Shown here: positions 13,613 to 15,979 of the stretch, one piece after another
How the letters are laid out: each line of letters starts with the position of its first letter
Position numbering within the stretch: the stretch's first letter is position 1
Source: Pseudomonadota bacterium
GTDB taxonomy: Bacteria; Pseudomonadota; Gammaproteobacteria; Pseudomonadales; Moraxellaceae
Assembly (NCBI GenBank): GCA_021804355.1
Contig: JAJZHP010000005.1
Coordinates: forward strand, 1 to 45,535
DNA length: 45,535 bases
Direction of reading: 5' to 3'
Program-made: the position numbers and the translations under genes
The notes under the pieces: model-generated
Seen by the model: only the letters and a program-made list of their open reading frames with translations
The model's database searches: none
What the model was told of the DNA's origin: nothing

Positions 13613-13784
13613 GACACAATCCCTTGTACCGTTGCTGCGATGACATGGAGTATATATCTAAGTCGCGGCCGAACTAGACTATCAATTCATCATGGGCATT
13701 TGTGCCGATGGATTTTTTGATGATTGCATGACATATCAGCGTTAAATGGTTACCTTACTTCCCCAGACATACAAAGGGTTCACT

Positions 13785-14864
13785 ATGTCTCGCTTGCCTC
13801 AGAATGCCATCCAACCCCTTGCTCCAGATCTGCTCCAGCCCATTCTACTACCTTGGGCGCAAGCCATCTTGAGGGCCATTGCCATCTTGGCAGCGCTCGG
13901 TTATGCCTACGCGGTTCCCCAAGCACTCACGTTGACCACCTATGCCCTGTTTTTATTAGGCGGCACCATCTTCATGGCCTGCTCGGCCATGCTGGGTCTC
14001 TGGACGATACTGCGCGGTGGCCAGGCTATAGTGACCGGCTTATTGCTGATTTCAGACCTGACAGGCTGGCTCACTCTGTTGCTCAACGACCCATCGAACG
14101 CAGCGCCTAGTCTCGCTTTATGGCCGGTGGTCATGATGCTGCAAGCGATGATCCTGCCGTGGCGCTGGTGGCGCTGGTCACTAGGCTTAAGCCTCACAGG
14201 CGCGACGGCCATTCTCGCTCTGCGTCAATTTTGGCTACATATTCCCCTGAACTTCACGGGTCAGTCACTCTTGTTAATGGACATAATGAGCGCTGCCCCC
14301 ATAGCCATCTTCAGCTATTACCTGGGCCTTATGCATGAACGTACGGCGCGCATCACCGAACCTGACCCCCTGACCGGCTTGGGTAATCGCTGGACTTTTT
14401 ATGAAGCCGCCAAATATCTCCTGCCTTACCACCAGCGTAATCTGACTCCCATGATGGTGTTATATGCGGAAGTCGAAATTTTAAGTCAGCAAAAAAAACA
14501 AACCAGCTCTATGGTTGTCGATCTCGTCGTTAAACAATTTGCTTCCATACTTGATAGGCGACTACGCGCCAGTGATGTAGCCAGCCGTTATAGCCGCTGC
14601 AGCTTTGCTCTGTTGCTCGCCGATATTTCTTCCCGAGAAGCTGAAAAAATTGCCTTTGAAGTTCAGCAAGAGTTTCATCAGTGGGCAAAAAACAAGAATT
14701 ACCCTGCTTTTGCCCACCTTGGATTAGCCGTCGTACCTGTTCGGCCCATAGCATTGGATCAGATATTGATTAACATCAATGCGGCGTTATTTAGGGCCAA
14801 ACAATATAAGCGGGGGGTCAGTGGAGCTGTTTTCGCAGACCCCGAACAGACCCTGGGTGCGTAA
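13785..14864 (+). CDS. Membrane protein with degenerate GGDEF domain
   Basis: The 359-residue product is read from the ATG at 13785 because AAGGG lies 6-7 nt upstream; an ATG at 13746 without a site would add 13 residues. The N-terminal half has about six hydrophobic segments (residues 20-180). The C-terminal half starts with EPDPLTGLGNRWTFYEAAKY, the classic opening of a GGDEF diguanylate cyclase domain. However, the signature itself reads SRYSRCSFALLL, where SRYGGDEFALLL is expected. The metal- and substrate-binding residues are therefore missing and synthesis of c-di-GMP is unlikely. It may bind a nucleotide or act as a regulator. It is divergent from the hybrid kinase with a 172-bp gap. 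Confidence 0.85.
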   Translation: MSRLPQNAIQPLAPDLLQPILLPWAQAILRAIAILAALGYAYAVPQALTLTTYALFLLGGTIFMACSAMLGLWTILRGGQAIVTGLLLISDLTGWLTLLLNDPSNAAPSLALWPVVMMLQAMILPWRWWRWSLGLSLTGATAILALRQFWLHIPLNFTGQSLLLMDIMSAAPIAIFSYYLGLMHERTARITEPDPLTGLGNRWTFYEAAKYLLPYHQRNLTPMMVLYAEVEILSQQKKQTSSMVVDLVVKQFASILDRRLRASDVASRYSRCSFALLLADISSREAEKIAFEVQQEFHQWAKNKNYPAFAHLGLAVVPVRPIALDQILININAALFRAKQYKRGVSGAVFADPEQTLGA

Positions 14865-14938
14865 CAAACCTTAAAAATGCTGCATTAACATATAGCAATG
14901 CTAATTAAGGGATGATAAAATCGCCACCGCCGATGTTT

Positions 14939-14997
14939 CGGGTGCCTGGTAGTCTCGCTGAGACGACCGCCGAATTCGGCTCAATGCGAGGCGCCCG
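14939..14997 (+). ncRNA. Predicted three-way-junction RNA in leader of Ala/Pro lipoprotein gene
   Basis: The 59-nt segment can fold into a closed three-way junction. The outer stem CGGGTGCCT / AGGCGCCCG has 9 pairs with one G-T. Inside are the arm GGT-A-GTCTC-GCT-GAGAC-G-ACC and the arm GCCG-AATT-CGGC, then an unpaired TCAATGCG. The 12-bp palindrome GTTAACGTTAAC (15003-15014) follows and the ribosome-binding site GAGAGA comes shortly after. This is consistent with a cis-acting leader (riboswitch-like or protein-binding) or a small RNA. I do not recognise a named class. A DNA-level operator is possible. Confidence 0.4.
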
Positions 14998-15038
14998 GCA
15001 TGGTTAACGTTAACTGGTTACCTGAGAGACTTATCATC

Positions 15039-15329
15039 ATGCAGATCAAAAAGATTGCGATCTCCGCCGCTATTGTTGCCACGTTGGCCATGGCTGGCTG
15101 CGCCAAGAAAGACGACGCTGCTGCTCCTGCCGCTGACGCTGCTGCTCCGGCTCCTGCCGCTGACGCTGCTGCTGCTGCTCCAGCTGCTGCCCCTGCTGCT
15201 CCGGCTGCTGCCGCTGCCGCCCCTGCTGCTCCGGCTGACGCCGCTGCTGCTCCGGCCGCTGCTGCTCCTGCCGCTGCTGCTCCGGCAGACGCTGCTGCTC
15301 CAGCTGCTGCTCCAGCTGCACCCAAGTAA
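15039..15329 (+). CDS. Ala/Pro-rich low-complexity lipoprotein
   Basis: The 96-residue product begins MQIKKIAISAAIVATLAMAG then Cys, a typical lipoprotein signal with the lipobox MAGC. The mature part is AKKDD followed by about 70 residues made almost only of Ala, Pro and Asp (AAAPAADAAAPAPAADAAAA style). Such a chain is probably an extended, flexible spacer anchored in the outer membrane (Ala at +2). The ATG at 15039 is preferred over 15000 because it starts the signal peptide and has GAGAGA 10 nt before it. The coding DNA is GCTGCTGCTCC-type repeats, which makes other frames falsely open. It has its own terminator and a structured leader. Confidence 0.78.
   Translation: MQIKKIAISAAIVATLAMAGCAKKDDAAAPAADAAAPAPAADAAAAAPAAAPAAPAAAAAAPAAPADAAAAPAAAAPAAAAPADAAAPAAAPAAPK
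15115..15322 (+). repeat. GCN-rich degenerate tandem repeat
   Basis: About 200 bp consist of imperfect GCTGCTGCTCC / GCTGACGCTGCTG units encoding the Ala/Pro/Asp chain. Such repeats are prone to length change by slippage, so allele length probably varies between strains. Confidence 0.8.
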
Positions 15330-15348: not shown

Positions 15349-15374
15349 AAAGGGCACTTCGGTGCCCTTTTTCT
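15349..15374 (+). terminator. Rho-independent terminator after Ala/Pro lipoprotein
   Basis: AAAGGGCAC-TTCG-GTGCCCTTT forms a perfect 9-bp stem with a stable TTCG loop and is followed by TTCTTT. It lies 20 bp after the stop codon, closing a single-gene unit with strong termination, as for an abundantly made small lipoprotein. Confidence 0.93.
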
Positions 15375-15481
15375 TTGGGCCGCCAGCATGATTTTTAATA
15401 TCCTTCAATCTTGGCAAATGAGATTAAGTTTGGCTTAATGGTCTCTTGTTTTTACCTTGTTATCAGCATCGGTACCCTGAC

Positions 15482-15979
15482 ATGTCATTATGCCCCTGTG
15501 GATCCGGACTGGCTTTCGAAAACTGTTGCCAGCCTGTACTAGAAAACCCAATTCAAGCACGCACTGCCTTGCAGCTAATGCGCGCACGCTACACCGCCTA
15601 CGTCATGCATCGCATGGATTTTGTACTTAGCAGCACACACCCGGATACACGCGACGCTGCTGACCAAGAAGCCATGGAATCCTGGTCACATGCCGCTACG
15701 TGGACAGGTCTTGAAATCATCTCTCCCGGCTCACAACACTCGGCAGGCGATGACCGTATTGAGTTTAAGGCCTATTTTCAGGTTCAGAATGTACCTCAGG
15801 TCCATCACGAACGCAGCCTGTTTCGTCATGATCAAGGCCAGTGGTGGTTTGTCGATGGCCAGGATATTTACAGTGGCCCTCTGGAAAAGCGACGTCCTTA
15901 CGTCAAAGAACAGCATACCGGCCGAAATGACCCCTGCCCCTGTGGCAGCGGCAAGAAATTTAAAAAATGTTGTGCCTAA
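15482..15979 (+). CDS. ychJ: YchJ/UPF0225 family SEC-C motif protein
   Basis: The 165-residue protein starts [16 protein letters not shown], a SEC-C zinc-binding motif, and ends with a second one, [13 protein letters not shown]. The middle has the YchJ-type NTF2-like region [20 protein letters not shown] and ARTWTGLEI-like sequence. The ATG at 15482 follows the family start; 15446 would add 12 residues not seen in relatives. The function is unknown; SEC-C motifs are also found at the SecA C terminus where they bind zinc and SecB/ribosome. It is 18 bp upstream of the thiolase gene. Confidence 0.9.

Follow-up and report, generated by a model that had tools for sequence, protein, structure and literature searches.

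A structured leader RNA, probably an uncatalogued control element, precedes a lipoprotein gene of the Moraxellaceae

We analysed the leader of an Ala/Pro-rich lipoprotein gene in a stretch of 45,535 nt (hereafter the window), which makes up an entire contig of a 2.6-Mb draft genome. Comparison of homologous sequences supports a structured leader RNA, in which the pairing of a closing stem, P1, appears to have been maintained by two-sided changes in at least two clades. The leader is probably a real, uncatalogued control element of modest effect and no recognised riboswitch. We give about even chances to the reading that this 5′-UTR of ~110 nt is a gene-specific cis element, which would set the stability and the translation of a monocistronic lipoprotein mRNA.

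The lipoprotein gene and its leader

The locus comprises the following features:

13746-14864, GGDEF-domain gene, the upstream neighbour
14913-14921, forward strand, putative extended −10 box TGATAAAAT, read by eye
14928-14938, forward strand, 5′ segment CGCCGATGTTT before P1, largely invariant in seven close leaders (alignment A4)
14939-14947, forward strand, 5′ strand of the closing stem P1 (9 bp), from folding and covariation
14952-14964, forward strand, inner hairpin A, sequence not alignable across genera (folding, alignment)
14969-14980, forward strand, inner hairpin B, sequence not alignable across genera (folding, alignment)
14989-14997, forward strand, 3′ strand of the closing stem P1 (9 bp), from folding and covariation
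15002-15022, forward strand, hairpin P3, weaker, containing the palindrome GTTAACGTTAAC (folding, covariation)
15003-15014, forward strand, 12-bp palindrome GTTAACGTTAAC, read from the sequence
15023-15029, forward strand, Shine-Dalgarno-like TGAGAGA (GAGAGA ribosome-binding site); a GAGAG-type site is kept in the aligned leaders
15039-15329, forward strand, Ala/Pro-rich lipoprotein gene, 96 aa, start ATG 15039-15041, from the ORF listing
15351-15372, forward strand, intrinsic terminator 3′ of the lipoprotein gene (−15.9 kcal/mol, z −4.19)
15446-15979, YchJ-like/SEC-C gene, the downstream neighbour

The first-pass annotation had described a 9-bp stem enclosing two hairpins, followed by a 12-bp palindrome and the ribosome-binding site, and every named part is present in the sequence. 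It had also called the gene a strongly terminated single-gene unit, and the gene indeed has its own intrinsic terminator. The encoded lipoprotein has no match in Pfam and none above the cut-off in NCBIfam. In particular, the model NF040598 of the Lpp/OprI alanine-zipper lipoproteins (cut-off 43 bits) did not match the protein of the window, and its scores for homologues, 17.1 bits and 11.0-12.3 bits, are below the cut-off. GCT accounts for 42 of the 58 alanine codons of the gene, compared with 247 of 857 across the long reading frames of the window; such a preference can, however, arise in a repetitive Ala tract without high expression. With this caution, the preference for GCT, together with the terminator and the kept promoter motif, suggests an abundant monocistronic mRNA.

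Of the 78 collected leaders, 73 have the motif TGnTAnnnT between −160 and −70, compared with 13% of shuffled leaders, and it lies upstream in all seven close leaders (that of the window and L005 to L010). A promoter scan of the window did not have TGATAAAAT among its listed sites. Because the motif is kept in these 73 leaders, transcription is expected to start at about 14926-14929, upstream of P1, as judged from the −10 motif. The first base of P1 would then be ~10 nt past the start, and P1 would therefore not be strictly 5′-terminal. The scan reported a promoter-like site inside the leader (15010-15037), which was rejected, as its second hexamer is not kept in homologous leaders.

The leader also contains an upstream ATG at 15000, in frame with the gene, which would lengthen the lipoprotein by 13 residues and is lost in L006 and L007. 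It was rejected as the start of the gene: it is matched in L008, but L005 has TTG, and the frame of L006 and L007 contains a stop.

Pairing in the leader and its conservation

The best fold of 14939-15039 consists of P1 and two hairpins, with a minimum free energy of −37.9 kcal/mol and a z of −2.41; 3 of 200 shuffled sequences fold as well. For comparison, 606 further 101-nt stretches were taken from both strands of the window (20 shuffles each): 21 (3.5%) also have a z of −2.41 or lower, and the fold of 14 (2.3%) is no weaker than that of the leader. The first-pass annotation had claimed more pairing than expected by chance, which holds against shuffles but is a weak statement on energy alone, because these 21 stretches reach the same z. 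Fold energy was thus discarded as a proof of structure. The mean z of 76 leaders is −0.99 (L142 and L144 were omitted as unrelated, and weak homologues, e.g. L118 and L130-L138, were included), compared with −0.15 for the 606 stretches, and the leaders of close relatives have values near 0 (−0.49 to 0.64).

The case for structure comes from the comparison of homologues. Alignment A4, which represents the clade of the window, contains seven leaders from three genera, six of them distinct. Across the 16 pairs of P1 and P3, 91.6% of the cells are paired, and both sides have changed at three pairs (five cells), located in P1 and in the palindrome hairpin P3. At the outer pair of P3, A-U and U-A replace one another in four of the six distinct leaders. 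The covariation score is 0.233 versus 0.162 in shuffles, and none of 500 shuffles scored as high; of the 500, 3 matched the fraction of paired cells, 105 the number of two-sided pairs, and 61 the further pair types. When the structure was slid along the alignment, 24.7-49.0% of the cells were paired with 0-1 two-sided pairs, a control that favours the actual position, since the structure was derived from the tested sequences themselves.

P1 was also followed in related genera. Alignment A3 holds 32 leaders (27 distinct) of a large genus, g15, and its 19 pairs are 97.8% paired, with two-sided changes at four pairs (six cells). None of 500 shuffles reached the paired or the two-sided measures, and 59 reached the further pair types. 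A set from four genera (g15, g7, g9 and g11, mostly g15) comprises 41 leaders with 16 distinct P1 stems, in which 131 of 144 cells are paired, and six of the nine pairs, in 17 cells, have changed on both sides; any of the three measures was reached by 0 of 2000 shuffles. Outside this count, in a leader that the search pattern had skipped (L013, genus g16), P1 pairs at eight of nine positions. In the clade of g13 (A5, seven leaders), P1 is 97.9% paired over 14 pairs with one two-sided change, and its covariation stays within the range of the shuffles (401 of 500). The stems in the leaders of g2 (A6) and g4 were drawn by eye and by script fold only. None of the shuffle figures is to be read as a probability, because shuffling ignores the relatedness of the sequences. 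The structured leader RNA that had been proposed, with covariation among homologues as its test, thus gains support: two-sided changes are found in P1 and P3 among the close leaders, and those in P1 are strong in related genera.

The interior of P1 is the fastest-changing part of the leader and cannot be aligned between genera. When the segment closed by P1 is folded, P1 with two hairpins is the best structure in four of the seven close leaders (the window, L005, L006 and L007). P1 is weaker in L008-L010, whose interior forms one long hairpin, so that the three-way junction of the first-pass annotation applies to the former four and not to the latter three. In folds of whole leaders, the pair probability of the P1 core is 0.82-0.92 in the window and 0.71-0.73 in L007, and the core is improbable (0.04-0.21) in L005, L006, L008, L009 and L010, i.e. 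in five of the seven. For L005, pairing of the 3′ strand of P1 with the ribosome-binding region is predicted instead. The low probabilities in these five leaders could either weaken the proposed structure or reflect two states.

Distribution of the leader and its gene

A DNA search matched the leader together with the gene in other genera of the same GTDB family. The N-terminus of the lipoprotein (first 36 residues) matches 256 of 348 genomes of the family at E ≤ 0.001. In the order, the lipoprotein model matches 6 of 244 genomes at E ≤ 1e-5, three within the family and three, weakly, outside it. The lipoprotein is thus found mainly in one family, very probably the Moraxellaceae. The lipoprotein matches in g8 and g10 seem unrelated and were excluded from the leader set.

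Two covariance models were searched against the 348 genomes with stricter filters, which may have lost weak copies. Model R1, built on the clade of the window, matched eight genomes, i.e. its seven sources and one further genome weakly (E 0.017). Model R2, built on the large genus, matched 172, namely 166 of g15, four of g9 and two, weakly, of g8. R2 has one match per genome, and 9 of the 175 g15 genomes in the family set have none. Genus g15 is probably Acinetobacter. In all eight genomes compared (G083, G099, G224, G167, G164, G162, G183 and G068), the RNA match ends one base 5′ of the lipoprotein match. The neighbouring genes are not the same in the window as around leader L085, which presumably has a Rho-like gene 5′ of the leader and an IHF-like gene 3′ of the lipoprotein gene; this difference indicates that the leader has stayed with its gene.

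Possible roles of the leader

In the reading that we prefer, P1 lies near the 5′ end and would close off most of the leader, while the ribosome-binding site would stay outside; in the clade of the window, the second hairpin, P3, would stand directly before that site. P1 would act in cis. It would shield the 5′ region from 5′-initiated decay (RppH/RNase E) and would keep the ribosome-binding site clear of pairing with the leader. Shielding by P1 and a free ribosome-binding site would together result in a long-lived, well-translated mRNA, as with the ompA 5′-UTR. We infer the exact start as well as the effects of the leader on decay and translation. A stem that keeps its pairing while its letters drift, around an unconstrained interior, is more in keeping with a structural protector than with a sensor.

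Structured mRNA leaders are a known kind of element, and the lipoprotein leader itself looks uncatalogued, with no match in Rfam. In PMC7509114, 5′ stem-loops are listed among the features that protect mRNAs, the ompA mRNA is described as stable, and the recA mRNA of Acinetobacter baumannii as stabilised by a stem-loop in its 5′-UTR; ompA and papA studies are cited in PMC3997798. The lipoprotein leader resembles such stabilisers (E. coli ompA and papA, A. baumannii recA) in several respects: it is long, with stem-loops towards its 5′ end, it belongs to a gene for an envelope protein, its ribosome-binding site lies outside the stems, and the pairing is kept as the letters change. P1 is a 5′ leader stem-loop of this type that is kept in relatives, both in the close leaders and in related genera. 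In contrast to these stabilisers, the gene is a different one, and P1 encloses a multi-hairpin segment and begins ~10 nt from the proposed start; the likeness is one of structure. If the reading as a cis leader is correct, the model matches in 166 of the 175 g15 genomes would represent an uncatalogued structured leader of a very large genus, probably Acinetobacter, linked to a lipoprotein of no described family. The natural covariants would then make it straightforward to test a stem near the 5′ end for its effect on mRNA life, and the U-run (see below) for a small RNA.

The main rival, tentative as it is, would be an attenuator or a small RNA derived from the leader. P1 and a U-run would terminate transcription and release a leader RNA of ~90 nt, read-through would yield the lipoprotein mRNA, with a further layer of translational control from a hairpin over the Shine-Dalgarno. 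The large genus g15 has the features for this: all 33 leaders folded (among L077-L128; the L059 row, from g4, was excluded, and L124 was missed by the search pattern) carry a U-rich run after P1, and their Shine-Dalgarno is covered by a CUC...GAG complement, an arrangement like that of attenuators and 5′-UTR-derived small RNAs. L109 is a natural deletion that has lost the inner hairpin yet retains P1, the run and the complement, and the P1 fold energies of L085 and L115 are −17.8 and −22.5 kcal/mol. However, no U-run directly follows P1 in the window and its close leaders, the run is interrupted in L124, and P1 closes a long segment, whereas terminators usually have a compact hairpin. The complement of the Shine-Dalgarno is invariant and, because it never varies, yields no covariation. 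The accessible parts of PMC12802169, PMC12153292, PMC11472050 and PMC3976366 report no small RNA at this locus, and neither they nor that of PMC2864571 describe the leader; the A. baumannii transcriptome tables are outside this scope and may list it. AbsR-19, according to PMC3976366, lies 2356 nt from the IHF-alpha gene, versus ~430 nt from the IHF-like gene in L085, and was therefore not equated with the leader. The independent small RNA that the first-pass annotation had envisaged is thus unsupported for the clade of the window, which lacks the U-run, and conceivable in the large sister genus.

A combined version, which we regard as unlikely, is one ancestral leader of the family with two states: either P1 is formed and the Shine-Dalgarno free, or the strands pair elsewhere, as predicted for L005 with the ribosome-binding region. 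In the large genus this stem would have acquired a U-run, and the leader would there be a control element of the mRNA and also a genus-wide small RNA outside Rfam.

Riboswitches with a three-way junction, such as that for TPP, are built from a closing stem with two hairpins, and the folds in the window, L005, L006 and L007, located in a leader 5′ of the ribosome-binding site, resemble them. Yet a ligand-binding aptamer of this type is highly improbable here. The junction is missing in L008-L010, no conserved letters of the kind expected of an aptamer core were found in its interior (alignment A4), and the element is linked to one gene, with one copy per matching genome. At gathering scores, Rfam has no matches in the whole window or in 14 related-leader loci, in agreement with the initial impression that no known riboswitch class is involved. 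The ligand sensor once suggested for this leader is not borne out, as the junction interior is its most variable part and neither model finds more than one copy in a matching genome; the variable interior, the single copy and the lack of an Rfam match also argue for a gene-specific cis leader. At a lax threshold, Rfam returned only SNORD44 on the opposite strand, which is chance-like (E 2.4). A resemblance to 5S rRNA was dropped, with no match in Rfam.

Two further explanations relegate the stems to a minor part. The leader could be a docking site for a small RNA acting in trans or for an RNA-binding protein (Hfq, CsrA-type), with the stems only presenting it. The invariant unpaired or loop stretches of the close leaders, e.g. 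CGCCGATGT and GTTAAC, and the U-runs of the large genus would suit this, but the invariant stretches differ between clades, and we consider docking quite unlikely. The palindrome could instead be a DNA operator, or the region could encode an N-terminal extension from the ATG at 15000, and the RNA folds would be incidental. This is very unlikely, even though GTTAACGTTAAC is almost invariant (a single T-to-C change in L008-L010) and that ATG is in frame: the switching outer pair of P3 speaks against it, as do the TTG of L005 and the stop in the frame of L006 and L007, and neither variant explains P1.

Some leaders have features of their own. The leaders L038, L039, L102, L107, L110, L112 and L116 of g2 keep CCGCAA inside an otherwise differing sequence. 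In most of the g4 leaders L059, L060, L074 and L089, CCGCUU/AAGCGG and AUGCU/AGCAU interleave when inspected by eye, so that a pseudoknot is possible. L097-L099 and L129 have a perfect palindrome, GGTTTTCGAAAACC, after P1 and just 5′ of the lipoprotein start, where the window has GTTAACGTTAAC.
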